Made by a program: the position numbers and the translations under genes
The notes under the pieces: generated by a model
What the model saw: the letters and a program-made list of their open reading frames with translations, nothing else
Told to the model about the DNA's origin: nothing
The model's database searches: none
Part shown: positions 3,676-23,385 of the stretch, in pieces
Position numbering within the stretch: the first letter of the stretch is position 1
How the letters are laid out: each line of letters opens with the position of its first letter
Source: a virus
Length of the DNA stretch: 64,000 bases
Virus record (IMG/VR): IMGVR_UViG_3300036826_000050
Span: 1 to 64,000 of that record
Reading direction: 5' to 3' (one strand)

Positions 3676-6600
3676 CTAGTCGGTTGAGATTACCCAGAGC
3701 CGCTTGGCTAGGATTTGCCGTGCCGTAACATAGCGCGGCCTGATACCTTCGACCAGCAAGAGGTCATGTCCCATGCGGAAGTCGAAGATGGCGTTCTTGA
3801 ACTGCGGGTACTTCCAGCGGTCAATCTTCAGGAGTAGTTGGTCGTCCTCGTCTTCGCAGGTTAGCAGAGCCCATTCGTTCAGTTCCGGATTCCGCACGCT
3901 CTTGGGATCGAGTTCCTCACCCGTCTTCGCGCGGTTGGTCTCGAAGATGTCTCGCACGTTCCTCTGAAGGATCGTCCCAAGCCAACAGACGGTGAACTCG
4001 CGTCCTTGCTCGTACGGGAGGTCGGTGGCCGTATGAGTTGGAGTCGGTAGTCGCGCGCCTCGCGGTTGCATGCCCGTCGGCGCGCGTCGGAGCTTGCCCT
4101 TGCGAATCATCTTCTTGACCTGGGCGATGTTGTCGTCGAGCGTCCGCACGCCAAACGGGTCCTTCTGCATCACCCATTGGTCGATCTTGTCGACCGTCTT
4201 GGGACCGATTCCGCGGATGTCCATAAGGTCCCACCAGGTATCCAGGCCGCCACGCTCGGCGCGGAACTTGACTATCTCGGCGGCGCGCTTGTCAGCGATG
4301 CCGCTGATCTGCTTGAAGCCGGATTGGATGGCTAGCTGACCTGCCGGCTTCCATGTCGCATCCGACTCGCTCGGACTCGGGCTGCGGACGTCAATGCCAT
4401 GCTTGACAGCGTCACGCAGTAGCTGCCGGGTCTTGTCCGGGTTCTCCGTCTGCGCGAGTGAGCAGGCATAGAAGATCGCCGGGTGGTGAACCTTGATCCA
4501 CATCGTCCAGTACGCTAACAGCCCGTAGGCGACGCAGTGGGCGGCGTTGAAGGCATAGGACCCCGACGTGATCATATTGCCCCAAACCTTCTTGGCCTGC
4601 GCGTGGCTGATCGGCGGGTAGTCGGTACGCTCATGTAGCGTCTGGCAACCCTCCCAGAACCGATCCCATTGCCGGTTGAACTCCTGCTCGCCGATTTTGC
4701 GGCTAATGATCTTGCGGATGTAAGCCGCGTGCGTCCAGGGGAAGTCACCGACCTCGCGGACGATGCGGAGAATCTGCTCCTGGTAGACGATCTGGAACTG
4801 CGTCGGCGCGGTAATGATGTCTACCGCCGGATGGAAGCGCTCGGGCTTCTTGACCCCGTGCTTGATCTCGGCGTACTCAGACGCGGCGCCATTGTGGAGC
4901 GGTCCTGGTCTGGCAAGCGCGTTGCAGTCGCATATCTCGCTGAAGTTATCGGGCTTCATCGACCCGCAGACGTACCGCATGGCGCGGCCGTCGAACTGGA
5001 ACACGCCGACGACGTCATTGGCACGGAAGCGGGCGAACACCTTCTGGTCATCGAGCGCGAGCGCGTACAGGTCCTCAATCGTCATGCCGAGTTCTTCGAT
5101 GGCCATCGAGATCATCGACATCGTGGACAGACCGAGGAAGTCCATCTTGACGAGTCCCTGACGCTCAGCGTCGTACTTGTCCAGGGACACGACCTGGATC
5201 GGGTGGTCGTTCACGACGCGCTCGTAGATGGCCGCTACCTCACGCAACGGCTCGTTGCTGATCACGAGGCCCGCCGCGTGGACGCCGAACGCCTTGATGT
5301 TACCTTCGAGTAGCTGGCTCTTGCGGAGGTCAGGGAACTTCTCCATGACCTCGCGCGCCTGCGGGAACTGCTCGATGGTATCCTCGATGGTCGAGGAAGC
5401 TCGCAGGTCACCGGACGACCGCTCGATCAGGAAGTCCTTGATCCGGTTGACCTCGAACTTCGGCACGCGGAAGACGCGCGCTACGTCATCGAGCGCGAGC
5501 TTGTTCTTGAAGTACGTGAACGTCCCGATGTTGTTTACGCACTCGTCGCCGTACTTGCCGGCGTAATAGTCACGTAGTAGCGGGCGAACCTCGCTGGGGA
5601 AATCAAGGTCAATGTCTGGTAGGTCTTCGCGTGTCTCGTCGATGAAGCGCTCGAACACGAGCAGGGGGAACTTGAGTGGATCGACCTCGGTGATCCGCAG
5701 AAGCCAAGCAACCACACTTGCAGCCGCCGAGCCTCGGGCTGGGCCGACTGGCGCCCTGAGATGATCCTTGACATACAGTACGCCCTCACGTACCAGAAGA
5801 AAGTAATCAACGTAGTCCTTGCTCTCGATGAGCGCTTTCTCGTGCGCTAGCTGCTTCTTGTACCGCGCGCGTTCTTGCGCCGGAAGTTTATTGACGCCTC
5901 GATATATCCAACCATCGCGAAGCGCTTGCTCCCAATACGCCTGAACGCCAGCGTAGCCGTATGGGACCTTGAACCTGACCATCGGGAGGCGCGGTAGCTC
6001 AACTGTACATTCTTGCGCAATGTCCTCGGTAGAAACGCAAGCTTGTATTGCTTCCGCGTCCGATAGCCCTGTTCCTCGGAGGCGTCTGTAGAACGATCGG
6101 TCATCGAGCGGCGGACAGAGCGGAACATTGTACCCCCATTCACGTGCTTGTTCCTCGATGGTCTTCTTGCCGCCGCCCCGGAGGTTGTGGAGGATCATCT
6201 GGATCTCAGACTCCTCATACTCCGTGTAGTGGCAGTCCATCGATCCGCAGAGCCGCGCGCCAATAGCTCGCGCGAGCCGTCCTGCGAAGTGAGTATTGAA
6301 CCGGCGGGTCGAATCGAGTTCAGGGAAGGCTTGAACCTCGATGAAGAAGTTCCCGCCAAAGTGTTTCTTGAACCAGCGAGCGACCTTGAGCGCGCGGCGA
6401 TAGTTTGCATGCTCCTTGGGGATGTGCTTCCCGCCGACCGCCGAACAGAACAGGAGCGATCCCTGGCATCCGCTCAGGATGATGAGTCCTTCCTTGTGCT
6501 CCACGAGCATTTGCGGACTTACCGTTGGCTCGTAGTAGAACCCCTCAGCGTACGACTTCGTGATCAGCGCTAGGAGGTTCTTGTAGCCGACCGCGTTCTT

Positions 6601-7011
6601 CGCCAGGACCGTGAGATGGGTCTTCGACTGCATACGGTTCTCTTCATCCGTCGGGCCAAAGTAAATCTCGCAGCCGTATATGACCTTGACGCCGGTCTTC
6701 TCGGCCGCAATCTCAGCCTTGACGTGAGAGTCGGCGTTCCCGTGCTCGGTGAAGGCGATAGCCGACATCTGCAATTCTTGTGCGCGACGAACGTGTGCCT
6801 CCGGTAGGCCATAGCCATCCCGGTAGCTCAACGTCGAGTGGTGATGAAGAGATACCGAACGCATCGGCTTGTGATTACCGTTGCGCCGTCGTCGCTGGAT
6901 AATCGGCGGAGTATGGCCGCCGCCGAGCTTCGCGCGATCAGGACTCTCGCTATGTTGTACCTGACCGCGCGATCCGAGTTTGTCTTCGCCTGGGCTAATC
7001 GCTAACGGCAT
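3676..7011 (-). CDS. dnaE: DNA polymerase III alpha subunit (DnaE-type replicative polymerase)
   Basis: This 1111-residue C-family polymerase makes the phage self-sufficient for chain elongation. The PHP domain starts near residue 52, with HHH (56-58), TEHGN (88-92), GCEIY (113-117) and DCHY (259-262). The metal ligands therefore look intact, and it may proofread by itself. The palm shows GPARGSAAASVVAW (423-436) and PDIDLDF (465-471) with the two catalytic Asp. A helix-hairpin-helix (SGIADKRAAEI, then IRGIGPKTVDKI) and a C-terminal OB-like domain follow. Start 7011 was chosen because it is preceded by AAGGTGAGG and overlaps the upstream stop (TAATG); an internal Met at residue 50 sits right before the PHP domain and has no ribosome site. 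No separate epsilon exonuclease or clamp gene was seen. Confidence 0.96.
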   Translation of the reverse strand: MPLAISPGEDKLGSRGQVQHSESPDRAKLGGGHTPPIIQRRRRNGNHKPMRSVSLHHHSTLSYRDGYGLPEAHVRRAQELQMSAIAFTEHGNADSHVKAEIAAEKTGVKVIYGCEIYFGPTDEENRMQSKTHLTVLAKNAVGYKNLLALITKSYAEGFYYEPTVSPQMLVEHKEGLIILSGCQGSLLFCSAVGGKHIPKEHANYRRALKVARWFKKHFGGNFFIEVQAFPELDSTRRFNTHFAGRLARAIGARLCGSMDCHYTEYEESEIQMILHNLRGGGKKTIEEQAREWGYNVPLCPPLDDRSFYRRLRGTGLSDAEAIQACVSTEDIAQECTVELPRLPMVRFKVPYGYAGVQAYWEQALRDGWIYRGVNKLPAQERARYKKQLAHEKALIESKDYVDYFLLVREGVLYVKDHLRAPVGPARGSAAASVVAWLLRITEVDPLKFPLLVFERFIDETREDLPDIDLDFPSEVRPLLRDYYAGKYGDECVNNIGTFTYFKNKLALDDVARVFRVPKFEVNRIKDFLIERSSGDLRASSTIEDTIEQFPQAREVMEKFPDLRKSQLLEGNIKAFGVHAAGLVISNEPLREVAAIYERVVNDHPIQVVSLDKYDAERQGLVKMDFLGLSTMSMISMAIEELGMTIEDLYALALDDQKVFARFRANDVVGVFQFDGRAMRYVCGSMKPDNFSEICDCNALARPGPLHNGAASEYAEIKHGVKKPERFHPAVDIITAPTQFQIVYQEQILRIVREVGDFPWTHAAYIRKIISRKIGEQEFNRQWDRFWEGCQTLHERTDYPPISHAQAKKVWGNMITSGSYAFNAAHCVAYGLLAYWTMWIKVHHPAIFYACSLAQTENPDKTRQLLRDAVKHGIDVRSPSPSESDATWKPAGQLAIQSGFKQISGIADKRAAEIVKFRAERGGLDTWWDLMDIRGIGPKTVDKIDQWVMQKDPFGVRTLDDNIAQVKKMIRKGKLRRAPTGMQPRGARLPTPTHTATDLPYEQGREFTVCWLGTILQRNVRDIFETNRAKTGEELDPKSVRNPELNEWALLTCEDEDDQLLLKIDRWKYPQFKNAIFDFRMGHDLLLVEGIRPRYVTARQILAKRLWVISTD

Positions 7012-9783: not shown

Positions 9784-10049
9784 TTGCTGGCTCCCTTCGC
9801 GACCTTCATGAAGTGGTACAGAGCGTAGCACTCCTCATCGTCCAGCGTCGTGTTGTCGCGAAGATCGACGTGGAGGATTGCCTGGGCCGTGCGTTTGCGC
9901 GGCTTGACCTGCCAGTACGTGACCGAGCTACCGGCCGGGATCGCAATCACATGAACGCTACCGTGGTCTGCATCCTTGACGCAGCGCTGGCCTGGTTGGA
10001 TGACTTCGTTCTCGGGCATAGTCCAATCGCAACGAATCAGATCGCTCAT
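9780..10049 (-). CDS. Hypothetical protein, 89 aa
   Basis: This is a small protein between the primase-helicase and the FAD oxidoreductase, overlapping both by four bases. It carries CDWTMPENEVIQPGQRC near the N-terminus and a His-rich middle. No family was recognised. Confidence 0.68.
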   Translation of the reverse strand: MSDLIRCDWTMPENEVIQPGQRCVKDADHGSVHVIAIPAGSSVTYWQVKPRKRTAQAILHVDLRDNTTLDDEECYALYHFMKVAKGASK

Positions 10050-12832
10050 CTCACTCTCCTTAGCAGGTCATGAAGCGTCGGCTCGACCCAGATGTCGCCT
10101 TTGAGCTTTCGTACCATTCGTGCTTCGTACAGAGTTGAGATGATCGCGTTGGCTTCCTCGCGATCTACATTCAGGACTTCCTCAACGTCCTGGCGGCGGA
10201 ACTTGCCTGCGCTGCGGAGGAACTTCGCCAAGCCCGGCTTATCCGCCAGGTAGCGCCGAATCCTGCGCCTGTTCTTCATCGCCTCTTTGCGGTCATTGAT
10301 TAGCTCGCGCGACCGCTCGGCATATCCGAACCCAGGCATGTCGTAAATCTGATCCATGAACCGGACCGCCGCTTGTACATGCGGTTTACGCACGACGATC
10401 CGTTCATAGGTGGAGTCCGTCGAGAACAGACGCGCTGCGATAGCGACGGCTAGGCGCGCAATCTTCTCACGAACATTTGCCACTTGGACGAGGGGCGGGT
10501 CCTCAACGTACCGCTTCCCCATATCGTTCGCTAACTTGTAGACCTCCTGTTCCGCTGAGTCCATCCAGATTACCTGCTCGGGCGTCCGACTCCAAACCCA
10601 TTGTACGAGAGTCATGCAAGCCTCGGCGTTGAACTTCTGTCGGCCAAGCTTATGCCTGCGGTTGATTACCTCTGCTGGTACGTCACCAGCTTGCACACTC
10701 ATTGCGAGGTCGAACCTGGCTATGTCCTCTGGGTTCCCGATCAGAGGTTGGATCTGTTGTACACCGTACGTCTTGTCCGACATGCGGCCGCCACGCGGAT
10801 TACTCATCCAGATGATCCGTGTCCTCGCATAGGTCCGCTCTTGCTGGATCTTCGTTAGCTCAGCGACGCCGGATGAGCGGACCGACGACATCTGCGCAAT
10901 CTCTTCAGTGGTCAGACCGCCCGCCTCGTCTAGGACAACGAGCCGTCGGTCATTGATCGGAATCGCGCCCCAATTGATCGACCATTCCTTCGCACCGCCG
11001 TACTGCTGCAGACCGCCGATGATGCCCGCGAAGCTTGCTGCCTCACACGACACGACCTCGCCAACGTTGTAGAACCGACAGAGCCTCGTCGCCGCCTCGC
11101 TCTTGCCCGTGCGAGTATCGCCGATGACTAGCATCTCAAGCCAGCCGCGATGAACCCGCTTGCCGTCGAAGTCGAACGCCAGGACCGAGTGGAACGTCAG
11201 ATCGAGCGCCGCGTGCATCTCAGGGAGGCCATAGATATGCGTCACGTGCTGGCTTAGGTCGTTCGCAATCTCGCCCAGCCGCCGGAGAGGGGGCTGTCCC
11301 CTGCGTGGCCGGAATCGCTTCATCTTCTGGATCATCGAGTTGTCGAGTGAGAAGCGGTCGATGGAGGATTCGGTCTTGGCTACATCCCACGCTTGAAACT
11401 CGTTTGTATGCTTGCGGGGATCGGGTTGGAGCGCGCCGACGACTCTGACCGTATTGTTCGGTTGCGTATCGTGACGTCCGACCGATGTGATCTTGATCGA
11501 CTTGTAATCGCCTGCGCCGCCATTCCCGCTCGCAGGACCACTCACGTGCTCAACGGACGGTCGTGCGTACAGAATCTCGACTGACTGGTACTCGGTGATC
11601 TCGACGTGAAGCTTGGGGCACTTGACGATATCAGCCCTGGCGCGAGCGGCGTCTTTGACCTGTTTATCGGTCGAGTCCATCATGGCCAAGATCACCGGGT
11701 CGCTACCGGCGATGATCTGTTCGTCGTCACCAGTCGCGAACAACGGGCAGAAGTTACATTTGACCCCGGCGTCCCGTGTACAGCGGAACCGGACCTTGCG
11801 CGGGATCGAGTATCCAGGCTCGCGCTTGCCCTTGATAGTCACCGTCAGTCTGACCGGCTTACCGACTTGGCGCGAGTCGAGCGCTTCAAGCGCCGTGGTG
11901 TCGGTTGGGTCGAGTCGCTCAGGTTCCTCAGATGCGAGTTCGGGATCGAACAGTTCGGCCTCTTCCAACAAGCGGAGGAAGCTGCCCGAGTCTTGCTCGT
12001 GTTCCATCCACCAGTCCGTGAGGTCCTTGCCGTTCTTCTCGATGATGGGGTAGGGTAGGCGCAGTATCCGTACCTCGCGCGCCGACCGCATGAGCGCTCG
12101 ACCGATCCGGCGGTTGGCGTCCTGGCCGGTCTCATCGCAGTCGTGGCAGAGGTAGACAACCTTGTCCTTGAACTCTGAGTTCCACTTTGCGTTCCAGACC
12201 AGGGCCGCGCCAGTCTTGGTGACAGCTGGGAAACCGTTTTGCGAAGTAATAATTGCATCAAGCTCCCCTTCGCACACAATCAGCTTATCGCTATCCATCG
12301 ACTTGATCGGATAGAGGCGCGGCTGATTCATCCCCTCGATGCCCCAGATTTTCCGCCGACCCTTGGGAGGTCGAAGCTGGTAGCGACGGATGTTGAGGAT
12401 GTCGCCCTCGACTGAGCGGATCGGGATTGTGTAGCACTCGCGCCCTGAGTCCCAGCCGATCTCATAGTCGGACAGGGTCTTGGTAGTGAGTCCGCGCGTC
12501 GTAATCAGTTCTTCGAGCGCGACCTCATTAGCGTGGAGCGCGCCGATCCAACCCGTGATCTTGGCTTCGCTAATGGTTTCCATCGGTTGCCCGCTAACTC
12601 GACCATTCGTACCAGAGGGCGATACCCAATTGTCGATCTGGTCGATGAGTTCGCTGATCTTACCGCCGCCGCAACCGGCGTGGCAGTACCAGACGCCCTT
12701 CTCAAAGTTTATCTGAGCGCTCCGCTTACGGTCAACGTGAAGCGGGCAGTGGAGGTCCCACTCCCCATCCTCGCGCGGTCGCTCACCTACGAGGTAGGGA
12801 CGCAGGAGCCGAATCTGCTCCTTGGTCGACAT
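10046..12832 (-). CDS. Primase-helicase fusion: DnaG-type primase with MCM-like AAA+ helicase
   Basis: This 928-residue protein looks like the whole priming and unwinding machine of the replisome. Domains in order: a CHC2-type zinc finger (C29, H32, C50, C54); a Toprim domain with VCEGELDA (E188, E190) and HDCDETG (D231, D233); a middle region with four cysteines (C351, C359, C362, C405) and an OB-like stretch ending VRVVGALQPDP, reminiscent of the MCM N-terminal domain; and an MCM-like AAA+ core with Walker A GDTRTGKS (571-578), Walker B LVVLDE (631-636), a pre-sensor hairpin, sensor Asn in WMSNPRGG (675-682) and an Arg finger in ARFD (705-708). The C-terminus looks like a winged helix. Bacterial replicative helicases are normally DnaB-type, so an MCM-type motor here is unusual. 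Confidence 0.9.
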   Translation of the reverse strand: MSTKEQIRLLRPYLVGERPREDGEWDLHCPLHVDRKRSAQINFEKGVWYCHAGCGGGKISELIDQIDNWVSPSGTNGRVSGQPMETISEAKITGWIGALHANEVALEELITTRGLTTKTLSDYEIGWDSGRECYTIPIRSVEGDILNIRRYQLRPPKGRRKIWGIEGMNQPRLYPIKSMDSDKLIVCEGELDAIITSQNGFPAVTKTGAALVWNAKWNSEFKDKVVYLCHDCDETGQDANRRIGRALMRSAREVRILRLPYPIIEKNGKDLTDWWMEHEQDSGSFLRLLEEAELFDPELASEEPERLDPTDTTALEALDSRQVGKPVRLTVTIKGKREPGYSIPRKVRFRCTRDAGVKCNFCPLFATGDDEQIIAGSDPVILAMMDSTDKQVKDAARARADIVKCPKLHVEITEYQSVEILYARPSVEHVSGPASGNGGAGDYKSIKITSVGRHDTQPNNTVRVVGALQPDPRKHTNEFQAWDVAKTESSIDRFSLDNSMIQKMKRFRPRRGQPPLRRLGEIANDLSQHVTHIYGLPEMHAALDLTFHSVLAFDFDGKRVHRGWLEMLVIGDTRTGKSEAATRLCRFYNVGEVVSCEAASFAGIIGGLQQYGGAKEWSINWGAIPINDRRLVVLDEAGGLTTEEIAQMSSVRSSGVAELTKIQQERTYARTRIIWMSNPRGGRMSDKTYGVQQIQPLIGNPEDIARFDLAMSVQAGDVPAEVINRRHKLGRQKFNAEACMTLVQWVWSRTPEQVIWMDSAEQEVYKLANDMGKRYVEDPPLVQVANVREKIARLAVAIAARLFSTDSTYERIVVRKPHVQAAVRFMDQIYDMPGFGYAERSRELINDRKEAMKNRRRIRRYLADKPGLAKFLRSAGKFRRQDVEEVLNVDREEANAIISTLYEARMVRKLKGDIWVEPTLHDLLRRVR

Positions 12833-12837
12833 GTCGC

Positions 12838-13098
12838 CTACTCGATGCCGAGATATGCGTACAGTTCGCTGCGAACCCTCGACACGCAGTTCATGAAGTC
12901 CCGCAAGTCGATTGTGACCTCGCCGTTGTTGTACACGGCCACCAGTTGATCGAGCCTGTCGTCCTTCTCGAAGACCCAGTAGCCGTGCCGCCCCCGGCGC
13001 TCCATCGAGACATGGCCAATCTCGTGGAGCGCCAGGTAAGCGGCCAACGGCAGGTCACGAGTCCGGAACAGACCGTTGCTGTGTTCCTGACCAGTCAC
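12838..13098 (-). CDS. DUF5659-like protein, 86 aa
   Basis: The pattern FRTRDLPLAAYLALHEIGHV, a WVFEKDD strand and a C-terminal SRVRSELYAYLG helix fits the small DUF5659 family found in phages and bacteria. Its function is unknown. It lies five bases before the primase-helicase and 22 bases after the SSB-like gene. Confidence 0.68.
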   Translation of the reverse strand: MTGQEHSNGLFRTRDLPLAAYLALHEIGHVSMERRGRHGYWVFEKDDRLDQLVAVYNNGEVTIDLRDFMNCVSRVRSELYAYLGIE

Positions 13099-13120: not shown

Positions 13121-14200
13121 TCAGAAGGGGTTGTCGTCGTCCTCGTCGTCCTTGCCGAGCCTGCCGGCCAGGACCTTCTTGGACCCCTTCGTGGACAGGC
13201 CGCGCTCCTGCGCCTCCTTCTTGAGCGCGTCCATCGACCAGGAGTTGTAGTCCACGGGCACCTCGTCGTCCTCGGTGTCGGACGCCTCGATGATCGCCTC
13301 GCGGATGTCCTCGTCCTCCATGGACTTCTTGACGCTGATGTCGAGTTCGTTCTCGCGGATGTACGCCTTCAGCTCAGAGCGGTCCATGTCGGCCAACTCG
13401 GCTTCCAGGTCGGACTCGGACTCGGTGTCGTCCTCGTCCTCGTCCTCATCCTCGTCCTCGTCCTCGTCATCCTCGTCGTCGGTGTCCTCGTCGGCCTCGT
13501 CCTCCGTGTCGTCGGCGTCCTCGTCGTCCTGGTCCTCGTCCTCGTCCTCGTCCTCCTGCTCCTCGGCCTGCGCCTCCAGGATGGCGCGGATGAGCCGCTT
13601 CTTCTTCATCGGCGTCATCTTGCCGGAGGGCTTGTCCAGCTCGAACTCGTCGGTGGCGACCTCGACCAGCTCCTTGTCGTCCATCGCCTCCAGGTCGGCG
13701 CGGGTGTACTCGTCGCCGTCCTCGTCCTCGTCAGGCTCCGGCTCGGGCGCGGTCTTGCGCGCCGACGCCTTGGCGCCGTCCTTGCCGGCCAGCTGCAGGA
13801 GCTTGCCGACGCGGGGCCGGTAGTTGTCGTCGAGGTCCGTGTCGGGCTTGAGGTTCATCTGGACCTCGGTGCCGACGATCTTGTCGGTGTCGAGGACGCC
13901 CTTGTCCTTGAGGGCGACGGCCTTGATGAACTCCTTCAGCTTCCAGTCGCTCGGCTCGTGCTCCAGGAGCACGTAGGTGTAGACGCGGGCGACCTGCTTC
14001 TTCTTGTCCTTGACCTTGACGGCCTTGCCGTCCGCCGTCTTGACGGGCTGGAGGATGACCTCCAGCATCGGGCCGTTGCCGGACTTCGACTCCTTGTGGT
14101 TGATCTCGGTGATCTTGCCGATGTACATGCCCGGCGGGACGTGCTCGAAGCCGCCGGAGTCGTCCACGTTGGACACGTCATACTTGAGCTTGGGGCTCAC
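13121..14200 (-). CDS. Single-strand DNA-binding-like protein with SAP/HeH repeats and SSB-type acidic tip
   Basis: This is a 359-residue protein. The N-terminal 140 residues (starting MSPKLKYDVSNVDDSGGFEH, then a PGMY-GKI-E strand pattern) resemble phage DUF669-type single-strand binding proteins. After it come three short helical units that look like SAP, HeH or Rho-N domains: YTRADLEAMDDKELVEV onward, DLEAELADMDRSELKAYIRE, and SWSMDALKKEAQERGLSTKG at the C-terminus. They are separated by a very long Asp/Glu tract. The last residues are DDDNPF, nearly identical to the DDDIPF tip with which bacterial SSB recruits partners. It sits next to the Sak4-type ATPase and the primase-helicase and probably coats ssDNA at the fork. 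Confidence 0.82.
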   Translation of the reverse strand: MSPKLKYDVSNVDDSGGFEHVPPGMYIGKITEINHKESKSGNGPMLEVILQPVKTADGKAVKVKDKKKQVARVYTYVLLEHEPSDWKLKEFIKAVALKDKGVLDTDKIVGTEVQMNLKPDTDLDDNYRPRVGKLLQLAGKDGAKASARKTAPEPEPDEDEDGDEYTRADLEAMDDKELVEVATDEFELDKPSGKMTPMKKKRLIRAILEAQAEEQEDEDEDEDQDDEDADDTEDEADEDTDDEDDEDEDEDEDEDEDDTESESDLEAELADMDRSELKAYIRENELDISVKKSMEDEDIREAIIEASDTEDDEVPVDYNSWSMDALKKEAQERGLSTKGSKKVLAGRLGKDDEDDDNPF

Positions 14201-15003
14201 GCTGCCGACCTCCCACTGCGCCTAGTGCGGGCGCGTCGTGTTTTGGCGCCGTTGCGTCTTCTGCTTCTCGACGCCTCGATTCGCTTCATCAGTTCGGGCA
14301 TGGTCGGCTTCTGGATTGCCCAGTCGTCGCCGCCCTTGTCGAACTGATTCTTGCCATACCAGACATCCGTGCTGGTAGTATGCAGGACGCGCACGAGCTT
14401 GTCCTCGTCGTCCCGCTGGACCTCCAGGAACGTGACCAAGTTCATATAGCCACAGATCTTGTTGGCCATCTGCTTACCCTGAACCCAGGGCATGAGCTTC
14501 ACGATGGGGTCGCCGTCCTCGTCCTTGTCCGGTGAGGCGAGCGGCTCGGAGTGAGCCGTGACGCCAAAGTTGAACAGGTCGGGTCCGACGACGTGACGGA
14601 CCCAGCGAGCCAGGCGCGTCATGTTGATATTGTACTCTTGTCTGTCCAGCCCGTACCGGGCGCGTGCCGGTTTCTCGGCGATCACCGTTTCCCAGATGTC
14701 GTCGAGTCCGGCATCTTGCCAGAGTGAGATCGAGTCGAGCCAGACCCAATCCCAGTCTTTGCCGTCATGGCGGAGGTAGTCGAGCGCCTCATGCATCTCA
14801 TCCCAGTCGTTGATGATCCATTCTTCAGCCGAGTTACCGGCCACGATGATCGAGTCAACGTGCTCGAACGGAGGTCGCAGGATCAGGACCTTCCCCTCTG
14901 ACGTCCCGGCGAACCGCGACTTGCCCGCGCCGGGGTCGCTATGCACGCACAGACGTACGTGCCGCGACCGACCGAGCGGGCGTATGGCGGCTGGTCGAGC
15001 CAC
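14197..15003 (-). CDS. Sak4-type RecA-like ATPase (AAA_24 family)
   Basis: This 268-residue ATPase has Walker A HSDPGAGKSRF (residues 21-31) and Walker B DWVWLDSIS (85-93, Asp 90), followed by a long helical region. The length and motif layout fit Sak4/AAA_24 proteins, phage RecA-like recombinases that stimulate strand annealing with their own SSB. The start is GTG 15003, overlapping the upstream stop (TAGTG). Its end overlaps the SSB-like gene start, so the two are made together, as in many Sak4 loci. The C-terminus is basic (SRSRRRNGAKTRRARTRR). Confidence 0.85.
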   Translation of the reverse strand: MARPAAIRPLGRSRHVRLCVHSDPGAGKSRFAGTSEGKVLILRPPFEHVDSIIVAGNSAEEWIINDWDEMHEALDYLRHDGKDWDWVWLDSISLWQDAGLDDIWETVIAEKPARARYGLDRQEYNINMTRLARWVRHVVGPDLFNFGVTAHSEPLASPDKDEDGDPIVKLMPWVQGKQMANKICGYMNLVTFLEVQRDDEDKLVRVLHTTSTDVWYGKNQFDKGGDDWAIQKPTMPELMKRIEASRSRRRNGAKTRRARTRRSGRSAA

Positions 15004-15903: not shown

Positions 15904-17019
15904 TCAGTATCGCTCCGGTATCTCATGGGCCGCATACGGCTCCCACGTCGTCATCGACGCATCGCGGTACGCTTCCCAGTCATTCCCGGTCTCATGCAAC
16001 TCACACATATCGCGGAACGGGCACCCGCGACAGTTTGGCATGAACAGCGGACCGGGGTTCTTGTAGTACGCCCGTTCGCCCTGACGAATCAGATACATGT
16101 CCGTGTACTCGTCAAGGACACGCTGGTGCATATTGATACGGTCTGCTCGATCACGGTACACCGGCCAGCGCTTGAAGGCTGGAGCCGCCTGCTGCTTTGA
16201 GATCGAACCGTCCTTGTTCAGCTTCCGACCCAGCTCGTCATACTTGTACGCCGGGTCTGGCGCCCACTTGCGCAGGAAGTTGTACATGATATGCGTCGGC
16301 ATCTGATCGGCCCTGAGGATACCTTTACGACGCAACCACTTGGGCGCGTACGTCCAGTACGATCCCGCCTGCTCGTCCATCTGGAGCGCGTCCGTGGCGA
16401 TGGCTTTCGTTGTCTTGTGCTCGGGGAAGAAGATGTCCTTGTTGGACCGATCCTCCCAAACCCCGTCGAGCGTCCCGACAAAGCGGAACCTGACGAGGCC
16501 ATGTCCCTCTATCTCGACCTTGAGCGGAACGTAGAAGATTTGCTCCGACGATATGACCCGATACTGCTCGTCGGCCTCGCGATACGTCTCAACGTAACGC
16601 TCCAACATTGAGACGCCTAGGTGACCAGCTTCGTGCCAATCCCCATCCTCGTCCGTGAAGCCCTCCGCGTACTCAGACTCGCGCTTCGCCTCGAACAGAC
16701 GCTCGAACACCTTAGCTGGATGCGGCCCGCGCTTGACGCCCGGCTTGTAGTAGCGGGCGAGCGCCTGGTGGACAAGGTCGCCGAACTTGAGCGGTGGAGC
16801 CTCTTCAGTCGGCTTGAGAAACTCGTTGAAGTTCCAGTGCCACTGTTGGCCACAACGCTTGAACGTTGTACGCTCCGAGTTCCGCAACAGAGGAAGGCTG
16901 GTACTGTTTCTACTCATGGGCTTCCGGCGTCGGCTGTCTGATCCACCGGCCGACCCCCGGAGTCTACCGGACGACCCCTTGCCTCGTAAAGGCGACACCG
17001 CTACGAGCGAGTTTTTCAT
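15904..17019 (-). CDS. RecB/Cas4-type PD-(D/E)XK nuclease with probable iron-sulfur cluster
   Basis: This 371-residue nuclease contains the RecB-family motifs: GDLVHQAL (80-87), Asp 185 in FVGTLDGVW, E200-H-K202 in FFPEHKTTK, and a QAGSYWTY motif (216-223). One cysteine lies near the N-terminus (C56) and three near the C-terminus (C329, C332, C338 in NCRGCPFRDMC), the spacing expected for the 4Fe-4S cluster of AddB and Cas4 nucleases. It probably processes DNA ends in recombination or packaging. Start 17019 has AAGGTGAG upstream and overlaps the RuvC-like stop (ATGA); the first 34 residues look unstructured, and ATG 16917 may be an alternative start. Confidence 0.88.
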   Translation of the reverse strand: MKNSLVAVSPLRGKGSSGRLRGSAGGSDSRRRKPMSRNSTSLPLLRNSERTTFKRCGQQWHWNFNEFLKPTEEAPPLKFGDLVHQALARYYKPGVKRGPHPAKVFERLFEAKRESEYAEGFTDEDGDWHEAGHLGVSMLERYVETYREADEQYRVISSEQIFYVPLKVEIEGHGLVRFRFVGTLDGVWEDRSNKDIFFPEHKTTKAIATDALQMDEQAGSYWTYAPKWLRRKGILRADQMPTHIMYNFLRKWAPDPAYKYDELGRKLNKDGSISKQQAAPAFKRWPVYRDRADRINMHQRVLDEYTDMYLIRQGERAYYKNPGPLFMPNCRGCPFRDMCELHETGNDWEAYRDASMTTWEPYAAHEIPERY

Positions 17020-20679: not shown

Positions 20680-21063
20680 CTATCGTTGGTACTGCTGGAC
20701 ATATCCGGGCACGCTCATGACGCGCCCGTCCTTCAAGCTTTTGACCGGGGTCTTGACGTCGGCGGGATCGCCGCTCTTCGTCAACGCCCAGGCTCGGACC
20801 TGGCCGAGGTCCAGCCCCTGAACGACGGGCCGGTTGTTGTCATCCATGCCGAGAATCGGATGCGGCGGGATTGTGACTCCCATATGCTCGTTGCTTACCG
20901 CGACCTCGCGCTTCCACCAGAGCGAGGCGACAACGCGGCGCTGTTGCATCGTCAGCACGTTCAGCTGCGGGTGTCGCCCGAGTTCGCGCGCCCATGACTC
21001 GATGAGTTCGTGGCGCTTGTCCGCGAGCGTACCGGGCGTTGCCTTCGTAAGGAACTGCGTCAT
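20680..21063 (-). CDS. Hypothetical protein, 127 aa
   Basis: This is a soluble protein following the SNF2-type helicase and sharing one base with its stop codon. The ending DGRVMSVPGYVQQYQR and a central SLWWKREVAV are distinctive, but no domain could be named. Confidence 0.65.
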   Translation of the reverse strand: MTQFLTKATPGTLADKRHELIESWARELGRHPQLNVLTMQQRRVVASLWWKREVAVSNEHMGVTIPPHPILGMDDNNRPVVQGLDLGQVRAWALTKSGDPADVKTPVKSLKDGRVMSVPGYVQQYQR

Positions 21064-23108
21064 TATACTTCCTCCATCTTCTGTCGCAGGAGGCGACGGA
21101 TGTCTAGGATGTTCTTGTTAGTCACGGCCTTGCCTTGCGTGACCTCTGCGATGTACTGTTGGATCGTTCCGCGCGTCCTGTAGTAGTAGACGCGCAAGCT
21201 CTCCGTCCGCGAGCCACGGTCGCCGCGATCCTCCAACTGCTCCTGATCGTCTGGGTTCCATGTTTCGTCAAGGATATGGATCGACCCGGCTTCCTCCAGG
21301 TTGAGGCTCACGCCGCCGGTCGTCGTCGTCATGACGATTACGTACGGCCGCTCGTCACCCTCCTTGAACTTCTTGAGGATCGAGCGCGAGTCCTTGGTCT
21401 CGCCGGTTAGCGCATCGCAGTGGATACCGGCCTTCCGCAAGACCGGCACGAGCATGTCGACCATTCGCTTCGACTCGCTTGCTACGATAGCTCGCGCCCG
21501 AGGCTCTGGGTCCGTCTTGCGGATACCCTCGTTGTCGAGCTTCTCCAAGAGGTCCTGGACCTTGCCGCTATCGGGCGTCGGCGTGACGATGATCTCCTCA
21601 TCGCCGTTGCGCTTAGTCCTGGTCTCCAACGTACAGGTCGCGTTAGCGAACTGCTTCAGGCGCGCGTACTCGGCAAGTACGTTCGTCGCGCTCAAGCGCT
21701 GTTCCTCGATCCTGATCTCCGCGTCGCGTTGGAACGCCTCGTACTGCTTACTCTGCTTGGGAGTCATCGAGCAGGCGACATCGATGATCGTCTTCTCGGG
21801 CAGACCGGGTAGCGCCTCGCGCTTCAGGCGCCTGACCATATGCTTCGCGTGCGCCTCGTAGAACTGATCCTCGCGACCGGGCTGGATGCCGAGTATGTCC
21901 TTGCCGAACCCGTTGTCGTCTATGACGAGCCACTGCTCAGCCCAGCGCCACTTGGACGTATAGCTCTGCGGCTCAAGCCATTGGAGGATCGGGAACAACT
22001 TGATCGGCTTACCGCCCATCGGCGTCCCGCTCATCGCGCAACGCTTCTGCGCTTTGACGAGGCCGACGCTGATCCTGAAGAGCGAGTCCGGATTGCCGAG
22101 TCCCGCCTTGTGGAACTCGTCGATGTTGAACGTAGCGAACTCAGTCTTGAGTAGTCGCTTCTGTAGCTCGGAGCGGTACGTGTAGATGTTACCCTTGCGG
22201 TCACGGTGGCAGACCTCCGCACCTGACCATTTCATGTCCCACTCGGCGTAGTCCTCGGCATAGAACTCGTCAGGCGGCTCTGGGACCTTCTTGACGCGGA
22301 TGAAGTCCGGGTTGAGACAGATGAACATCGGAGGGTGGTCCTTGACCGTCGCATGCTCCGTGAGCGCCTCATTGACCTCGTACTCGCGCTCTGCTAGGTC
22401 CTCAGCCGTGTAGACCCAGGCGTCGGGGAGGAAGCGGTCAATCTCCTCAAGCCAGACGTTCTCCAGCGAGCGGACCGGCGCGCAGACGAGATGGATCGAA
22501 CCGGGTTGGAACAGGTCGGCCTCCACGACCGCGCCGAGCCACTCCAACGTCTTGCCGGTTCCCATCTGGTTCGCGTTGAGCGTATTCGTCTGCGCCATCA
22601 TGGCGATGTCCGCTCGCTGGTACGGTCGCGGATCGCGCTTGGTCATGAGCGGATGCGGCTTACCATCCGGCCCCGGCGGCAGGCTGAGTTCCGTCAGCGG
22701 CTCGCCCGCGATTGCTCGCGCGATCCGGTCGGCGCGCGAGGGGACGATGCTCAGTTCGGCATCGCTTGCGCTGGTAAGCGACTTGAGGTTCCGTTCCTTG
22801 CGGCGCTCGGCGCGACCCCAGGACCTGAGACCTTCGCCGATCTCAAGCCCCATGCCGAACTCCTCACGCAGACGCTCGCCGCTGACGAGGTCGAGCGGGA
22901 GTCGCCAGAGCGGACCGCCCTTGTCGAGCGGGACGAACCGCGCGCCAGGGACGCGCTTGACCGCCGCGACCGCATCGGGGCTGTACTTGAAGTACACGTC
23001 GATACGGTCACCGGCCTCGTTGAGTTCTGCGAAGCATCTCATGACCCAAGCCTCCGCGCGTCGCGCTTTGCCGATGAGACGGAACTGGAACGGCAGATCA
23101 TCAGTCAT
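21063..23108 (-). CDS. SNF2-type DEAD-like helicase
   Basis: This is a superfamily 2 ATPase of 681 residues. It has a Q/RPYQ element before motif I, Walker A NQMGTGKT (about residue 180), motif II NIDEFHKAG, motif III AMSGTPMG, and a second RecA-like lobe with ALTGETKDSR and the motif VI arginines in QLEDRGDRGSR. Such phage enzymes remodel protein-DNA complexes or unwind short duplexes during replication and recombination. About 110 N-terminal residues precede the helicase core. ATG 23108 was chosen by overlap with the upstream gene; an earlier in-frame start would overlap that gene by 65 bases. Confidence 0.9.
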   Translation of the reverse strand: MTDDLPFQFRLIGKARRAEAWVMRCFAELNEAGDRIDVYFKYSPDAVAAVKRVPGARFVPLDKGGPLWRLPLDLVSGERLREEFGMGLEIGEGLRSWGRAERRKERNLKSLTSASDAELSIVPSRADRIARAIAGEPLTELSLPPGPDGKPHPLMTKRDPRPYQRADIAMMAQTNTLNANQMGTGKTLEWLGAVVEADLFQPGSIHLVCAPVRSLENVWLEEIDRFLPDAWVYTAEDLAEREYEVNEALTEHATVKDHPPMFICLNPDFIRVKKVPEPPDEFYAEDYAEWDMKWSGAEVCHRDRKGNIYTYRSELQKRLLKTEFATFNIDEFHKAGLGNPDSLFRISVGLVKAQKRCAMSGTPMGGKPIKLFPILQWLEPQSYTSKWRWAEQWLVIDDNGFGKDILGIQPGREDQFYEAHAKHMVRRLKREALPGLPEKTIIDVACSMTPKQSKQYEAFQRDAEIRIEEQRLSATNVLAEYARLKQFANATCTLETRTKRNGDEEIIVTPTPDSGKVQDLLEKLDNEGIRKTDPEPRARAIVASESKRMVDMLVPVLRKAGIHCDALTGETKDSRSILKKFKEGDERPYVIVMTTTTGGVSLNLEEAGSIHILDETWNPDDQEQLEDRGDRGSRTESLRVYYYRTRGTIQQYIAEVTQGKAVTNKNILDIRRLLRQKMEEV

Positions 23109-23385
23109 CGTCGCCCGGTCGCGGCCAGCCAGCGCGAGTCTCGCCAGCGAGCGAATCGTCGTCATCGGTCGGCAGTTCGGCCGCGTCTTTGTTGATCAGA
23201 TCGACGACATTGACGAGGTTCTTGAGCAGCTCGTCGGGGAAGAGCATGACGTCGCCAAAAACATTCAGCTCGCCGCTTGGGACATCGAACTGCTCGTCGC
23301 GCGGAACTCGCCAGACAGCGATGTCGAACTCGGGCATATCGCTCTCTTTGAGCGAGGCCAAGTGAAGTCCGATTAGATACATCAT
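23101..23385 (-). CDS. Hypothetical protein, 94 aa
   Basis: This is the first gene of the helicase operon. The leader has the short hairpin with embedded ribosome site (23393-23408), eight bases before ATG 23385. The product has an acidic C-terminus and no known motif. Confidence 0.66.
   Translation of the reverse strand: MMYLIGLHLASLKESDMPEFDIAVWRVPRDEQFDVPSGELNVFGDVMLFPDELLKNLVNVVDLINKDAAELPTDDDDSLAGETRAGWPRPGDDD

Follow-up and report, generated by a model that had tools for sequence, protein, structure and literature searches.

Within the 64,000-nucleotide window that we analysed (positions 1 to 64,000 of the IMG/VR virus record IMGVR_UViG_3300036826_000050), a single gene joins a CHC2 zinc finger and a Toprim domain to an MCM-like helicase region. 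We think it very probable that its product, P0001, serves a tailed phage as its replicative primase-helicase, combining an MCM motor with a DnaG-type primase that would serve the phage's own DnaE polymerase. A previous reading, made from the sequence only, had placed a 928-residue open reading frame (ORF) at 10046-12832 without giving its strand; we confirm this frame, which runs from ATG to stop, and add that it lies on the minus strand. Full-length homologues are present in independent phages (35% identity, E 4e-149), and a chance or antisense ORF is ruled out by conservation across 75 relatives.

Domains and predicted folds of P0001

The AlphaFold2 model of residues 300-928, built from 110 sequences, has a mean pLDDT of 95.4 and a pTM of 0.92. 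When it was compared by Foldseek with the structures of the Protein Data Bank (PDB), the best 50 fold matches were all MCM subunits (50/50), SsoMCM among them, with a best E of 2e-22 over 641 alignment columns. The alignments span 555-700 columns of whole MCM chains, so the N-tier, the motor and the C-terminus are all covered. Regarding the motor, two strands (606-611 and 616-621) interrupt helix 2 in the model and form the helix-2 insert, a modelled pre-sensor-1 (PS1) hairpin at 656-668 carries K661 ahead of the sensor-1 N678, and a winged helix is found towards the end of the chain. The sequence-only reading had taken this half as MCM-like and had set it against a superfamily 3 (SF3) or RuvB-type ATPase; the fold matches bear it out and, with the helix-2 insert and the PS1 hairpin present, the motor is neither SF3 nor RuvB. 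The predicted structure thus supports the assignment of residues 300-928 to the MCM helicase subunit fold, with unwinding as the predicted activity. In the model, the first OB strand has a single short helix in front of it; the helical A subdomain appears to be missing and the primase to stand in its place.

When the PDB was searched with phmmer, MCM chains alone rose above the noise (MCM2, 3e-8; archaeal MCM, 3e-6), and a profile of 110 relatives also found MCM chains only among the 60 matches listed, with a best E of 5e-19. The profile alignments pair the helix-2 insert, the PS1 hairpin lysine, the sensor-1 Asn and the arginine finger with MCM chains. A Pfam MCM match was obtained in 49/51 diverse relatives, and a weak Mg_chelatase match in 7. 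All the MCM motifs quoted beforehand (four Cys, Walker A and B, pre-sensor hairpin, N678, ARFD and winged helix) were recovered, as were the CHC2 zinc finger (C29/H32/C50/C54) and the Toprim residues (E190, D231xD233) of the other half.

This other half, residues 1-300, gave a model with a pLDDT of 94.8, whose best PDB folds by Foldseek were the Aquifex primase (E 2e-13) and DnaG catalytic cores (E about 1e-8), with further matches to T4 gp61, Twinkle and T7 gp4. A Toprim_2 (Pfam) match spans residues 185-271 (E 2.4e-6), and the PF01807 score is under the curated cut-off in P0001 and over it in 4/7 relatives scanned. Pfam and phrog profile searches gave no match to an archaeo-eukaryotic primase (AEP) in P0001; Toprim was found instead. 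The modelled fold supports a DnaG/T7-type primase composed of a CHC2 zinc finger, an RNA-polymerase core and a Toprim domain, for which priming is predicted.

Conservation was counted in 75 diverse fusion relatives. The Toprim catalytic residues E190 and D231 were kept in 75/75 and D233 in 74/75, while the CHC2 residues were found in 73/75 (C29), 68/75 (H32), 74/75 (C50) and 68/75 (C54). In the MCM half, K577, E636, N678 and R706 were each kept in 75/75 and K661 in 69/75; the Cys4 site showed C351, C359 and C362 in 75/75 each and C405 in 72/75. These counts indicate that both halves are under selection as enzymes.

Probable role in replication and alternative readings

The whole record has 64,206 bases, encodes terminase, portal, major head protein and tape measure, and is a tailed-phage genome or a large piece of one. 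DnaB_C was absent from it and from all 47 carrier records scanned (0/47), while control genomes matched; these 47 records were picked as carriers of the gene and some may be incomplete. Regarding polymerases, 32 of them encode DnaE and 14 PolA, never both, and one has neither. The latter is the L104 record (G026, 64,128 bases). Relatives such as L008 carry an AEP before the same MCM half. The AEP forms examined pair with PolA and not with DnaE: the AEP carriers of the Bacillus type in the 47-record set all had PolA (5/5), and DnaE was found only with Toprim-MCM. Among the genes scanned, none could be recognised as a separate loader or initiator. Since the carriers have their own polymerase, lack DnaB and always carry the fusion gene, its product is likely to be the replicative primase-helicase. 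The order of the domains, their predicted folds, the conserved catalytic residues, the lack of DnaB and the presence of a phage polymerase are what the analysis itself shows.

MCM proteins are hexamers that move 3'-5' on the leading-strand template with the N-tier leading. An AEP-MCM primase-helicase, the BcMCM type, comes from a Bacillus cereus prophage (McGeoch & Bell 2005 and Samuels 2009, as cited in PMC4538821 and PMC5862659). This AEP-MCM fusion is reported to have 3'-5' helicase and primase activity (PMC4538821). Together with what is known of MCM, this activity suggests the same motor for P0001. By analogy, we infer that its C-terminal two thirds would be the MCM subunit of a presumed hexamer moving 3'-5' on the leading-strand template, and that its N-terminal third, the DnaG-type primase, would be connected by a linker of ~35 residues to the N-tier, at the position of the cellular A subdomain. 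If the N-tier goes first, as in MCM, the primase would lie on the N-tier side, adjoining the excluded lagging strand, and would there supply the phage's own DnaE polymerase with RNA primers. The strand geometry would then be opposite to that of T7 gp4 and DnaG-DnaB.

One could argue that the MCM half is mainly an origin-melting or loading factor, with the host DnaB unwinding the fork and the Toprim half priming only at the origin. It is general knowledge that AAA+ proteins encoded by mobile elements, those of the MCM type included, can act as initiators, that a winged helix could bind an origin, and that phages can borrow the host DnaB. However, 46/47 records encode their own replicative polymerase and none encodes DnaB, no loader or initiator emerged from the genes scanned, and the window showed no iteron-like origin, most of its repeats being coding repeats of the acidic-tract or collagen-like kind. 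Besides, the BcMCM protein is reported to be a 3'-5' helicase (PMC4538821). An origin factor is hence an unlikely explanation of the gene.

It could also be that the Toprim half is not a primase but a nuclease-like or regulatory Toprim, and that the MCM half alone works. Toprim also occurs in nucleases, the CHC2 match of P0001 is under the Pfam cut-off, and two relatives (L191:4626-6884 and L198:4707-6893) have an MCM half with a remnant of the primase N-subdomain, the zinc finger and the Toprim core being gone. Yet P0001 combines the zinc domain, the RNA-polymerase core and Toprim, its best matches are true primases, E190 and D231 are invariant and D233 nearly so (74/75), and the replacement of the Toprim half by AEP in relatives points to priming as the common function, so that we consider a half without primase function very improbable. 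Finally, an AAA+ part from another clade with a helix-2 insert or PS1 hairpin (Mg-chelatase, ComM or MoxR type, SF3, RuvB), towards which the PF00493 matches in bacterial genomes without MCM and the weak Mg_chelatase or AAA_5 matches of a few relatives might point, can be practically dismissed, as the best 50 folds and all 60 profile matches listed are MCM, the alignments span N-tier, motor and C-terminus, SF3 and RuvB have no helix-2 insert, and chelatases have no zinc/OB N-tier. The SF3, RuvB and Mg-chelatase clades were rejected on the profile matches, the Pfam matches of the relatives and the fold matches.

Several points weigh against P0001 being a replicative primase-helicase. The fold evidence comes from predicted, not solved, structures. 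P0001 passes the PF00493 cut-off (39.8 vs 23.3 bits), but this model also matches bacteria without MCM, including all 14 control genomes, E. coli among them, presumably through chelatase/ComM-type relatives; the clade was therefore tested with the profile of relatives, and the Pfam match alone was not relied on. The NCBIfam cut-offs are not reached for MCM (NF040949, 17.8 of 940 bits) or for DnaG (47.3 of 283.6 bits), which makes P0001 a remote relative of the cellular enzymes. In L191 and L198 the primase half is largely lost, so that the MCM chain need not always prime as well. Besides, the 64-kb record may be incomplete, and a second helicase outside it is possible.

Primase exchange, distribution and variant forms

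A tree built from 28 rows of the MCM half scatters the AEP forms over two or more positions within the Toprim forms, and a topology that keeps them as one clade was rejected (approximately unbiased test, p-AU 1.2e-5, 28-row set). A 75-row tree gave the same placement. As the AEP forms do not make one clade, these trees indicate at least two exchanges between unrelated primases on one MCM lineage; they are unrooted, with no outgroup, and give no direction for the exchange.

In the named phage collection, the MCM half was present in 50 records, 48 with Toprim and two with AEP, the latter being both records of Bacillus phage vB_BboS-125. Their annotations read DNA primase, primase/helicase, 'DNA primase small subunit' or DNA polymerase, and MCM appears in none of them. 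Among these records, the same gene goes by the name of DNA primase, primase small subunit or DNA polymerase in L005, L006, L007 and L008; 'small subunit' fits vB_BboS-125 (AEP) but neither Youna2 (Toprim) nor, by match, BSTP5. A single-protein scan of viral contigs gave no matches, its patterns being too strict, and alignments were used instead. Starting from three seeds, we confirmed at least 298, at least 166 and at least 85 places in IMG/VR, which overlap. After removal of identical copies, and with the named phages included, there were 162 Toprim forms, 12 AEP forms and 7 with neither, mostly cut contigs; with genome contigs the tally, not dereplicated, came to 231, 18 and 13, respectively. 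All these counts depend on the seed and are not frequencies. AEP-MCM is also present in Paenibacillus, Brevibacillus and Sutcliffiella genomes, and Toprim-MCM in a few metagenome-assembled genomes. The sequence-only reading had considered a Toprim-MCM fusion an unusual replisome core; the fusion holds and is no one-off, being common in named phages (48 records) and IMG/VR (well over 150 distinct proteins). Related phages with this enzyme or one like it, in the position normally expected of a DnaB-type helicase, number in the hundreds. One IMG/VR contig of 129,757 bases (3300046533_000294, with L025 and L047) has two copies of the fusion gene and may be a join of two phages.

Two distant loci (L215:4080-7601 and L254:2679-6332) have the fusion gene split between the MCM N-tier and the AAA+ motor. 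Their first ORF holds the Zn-Toprim part and the MCM N-tier (515 aa in L215, 562 aa in L254); two small overlapping genes come next, and behind them an ORF with the AAA+ motor and the C-terminus (433 and 451 aa). Active-site motifs are intact in both parts. The frame overlaps resemble those of ordinary operon genes, and an Rfam scan of the split loci and the window gave no matches, with no intron seen. This arrangement suggests a two-subunit form in which the N-tier and the motor would be on separate chains.

Known systems and genomic setting

The usual view is that MCM serves archaea and eukaryotes as their helicase. Exceptions in the bacterial world are known in elements with AEP primases (PMC5862659), and both AEP-MCM fusions and MCMs of bacterial mobile elements have already been described (PMC5862659, PMC4538821). 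Like P0001, the BcMCM type has the primase and then the MCM in one chain, and is a phage replication gene, but its primase has the unrelated AEP fold where P0001 has Toprim; this comparison was by description only. The AEP-MCM of vB_BboS-125, a close relative of the BcMCM type, has the same MCM half, with 28% identity to P0001 over 95% of it. T7 gp4, Twinkle, DnaG-DnaB and T4 gp61-gp41 share the primase fold of P0001 (by Foldseek) and the coupling of primase and helicase, in one chain in gp4. Their motor, however, is of the RecA type (superfamily 4) and moves 5'-3' on the lagging strand, whereas P0001 has an AAA+ MCM, for which 3'-5' movement along the leading strand is expected. Cellular MCM (archaeal MCM, eukaryotic MCM2-7) has in common with P0001 the zinc/OB N-tier, the AAA+ motor with the helix-2 insert and the PS1 hairpin, and the winged helix; it differs in being cellular and not from a phage, in its identity of about 14% in the fold alignments, and in having the helical A subdomain, of which none is visible in the model of P0001, where the primase appears to sit instead.

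Regarding phage protein families, phrog_239, phrog_47 and similar ones ('DNA primase/helicase') have a related Zn-Toprim N-terminal half and match P0001 in this half only, their C-terminal half not being this MCM. In contrast, phrog_18685 (unknown function) matches residues 319-913 (E 3e-84) from profile position 392 onwards, and the ~390 residues ahead differ from P0001; this family is likely an AEP-MCM. One BFVD match is named TOPRIM primase and, going by that name, Toprim may already be fused to other AAA+ motors in phages. No description of a Toprim-MCM fusion was found in a literature search that missed the most relevant survey and much subscription literature; the fusion is real, widespread and present unnamed in public phage genomes, and it is apparently undescribed.

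In a broader sense, we find it reasonably probable that these genes represent a widespread, undescribed replisome class without DnaB, made of a DnaG-type primase, a 3'-5' MCM and DnaE, in which the primase on the N-tier would prime the excluded strand, two unrelated primase folds would have been swapped repeatedly, and N-tier and motor would be separate in two lineages. Here the partner of the MCM motor is a primase of the bacterial type, and most carriers examined add a polymerase of the bacterial type. Given that the carriers include cultured phages of tractable hosts (Microbacterium, Arthrobacter and Bacillus), two questions can now be tested: how a DnaG-type primase and a helicase of opposite polarity work together, and whether a primase-specific contact is needed when unrelated primases swap on the same helicase.

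The fusion gene lies in a minus-strand replication operon (Table 1). It starts a few bases after the upstream ORF, whose end is at 12838, and its stop overlaps the start of the next gene downstream by 4 bases (ATGA). The order helicase, exonuclease, RecA-like, unknown, primase and DnaE is identical in Microbacterium phage Krampus and Arthrobacter phage Wollypog, and the minus-strand module also holds ThyX, an SDR protein and a HAD/PNK-like protein.

Table 1. Features of the Toprim-MCM gene and of other genes in the window
Feature	Coordinates	Strand	Support
Whole gene, Toprim primase-MCM helicase fusion (P0001)	10046..12832	-	928 aa, stop codon included; full-length homologues
CHC2 zinc-binding domain, residues 24-67 (C29, H32, C50, C54)	12632..12763	-	PF01807 E 8e-4
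N-subdomain of predicted primase RNA-polymerase core, residues 87-182	12287..12574	-	model pLDDT mostly 92-98; Foldseek to DnaG catalytic cores
Toprim domain, residues 183-278, catalytic E190, D231, D233	11999..12286	-	PF13155 E 2.4e-6; conserved catalytic residues
Linker, residues 291-326	11855..11962	-	25-43 residues in relatives
MCM N-terminal domain, OB-type barrel with inserted Cys4 zinc site, residues 327-486	11375..11854	-	model; Foldseek to whole MCM subunits
Cys4 zinc site C351, C359, C362, C405	11618..11782	-	conserved in 72-75/75
AAA+ motor, residues 515-722	10667..11290	-	PF00493 E 3.4e-10, residues 524-713; profile to PDB MCMs E 5e-19
Walker A GDTRTGKS, residues 571-578	11099..11122	-	K577 75/75
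Helix-2 insert beta-hairpin, residues 606-621	10970..11017	-	model strands; aligned with same MCM element
Walker B LVVLDE, residues 631-636	10925..10942	-	E636 75/75
Pre-sensor-1 beta-hairpin, residues 656-668, tip K661	10829..10867	-	model strands 656-659, 665-668
Sensor-1 Asn678	10799..10801	-	75/75
Arginine finger R706 (ARFD)	10715..10717	-	75/75
MCM lid / C-terminal helical region, residues 736-830	10343..10627	-	helices in model
C-terminal winged helix, residues 855-928	10049..10270	-	helices then beta hairpin in model
DnaE-type DNA polymerase III alpha (C family), likely replisome partner	3676..7011	-	PF07733 E 6e-59, PHP domain
Acidic-tailed protein, C-terminal SAP domain	13121..14200	-	PF02037; phrog_3724
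Sak4-type RecA-like ATPase	14197..15003	-	phrog_124 E 2e-29
PD-(D/E)XK exonuclease	15904..17019	-	phrog_1218 E 4e-64; PF12705
SNF2-type superfamily 2 helicase	21063..23165	-	PF00176 E 9e-18

The SAP-domain protein, a short way upstream of the fusion gene, has a long Asp/Glu-rich repeat before its C-terminal SAP domain, and is a possible single-stranded DNA-binding partner. The DnaE polymerase of the window is a single chain of 1111 aa, while the Krampus and Wollypog records have two DnaE-like genes annotated separately.

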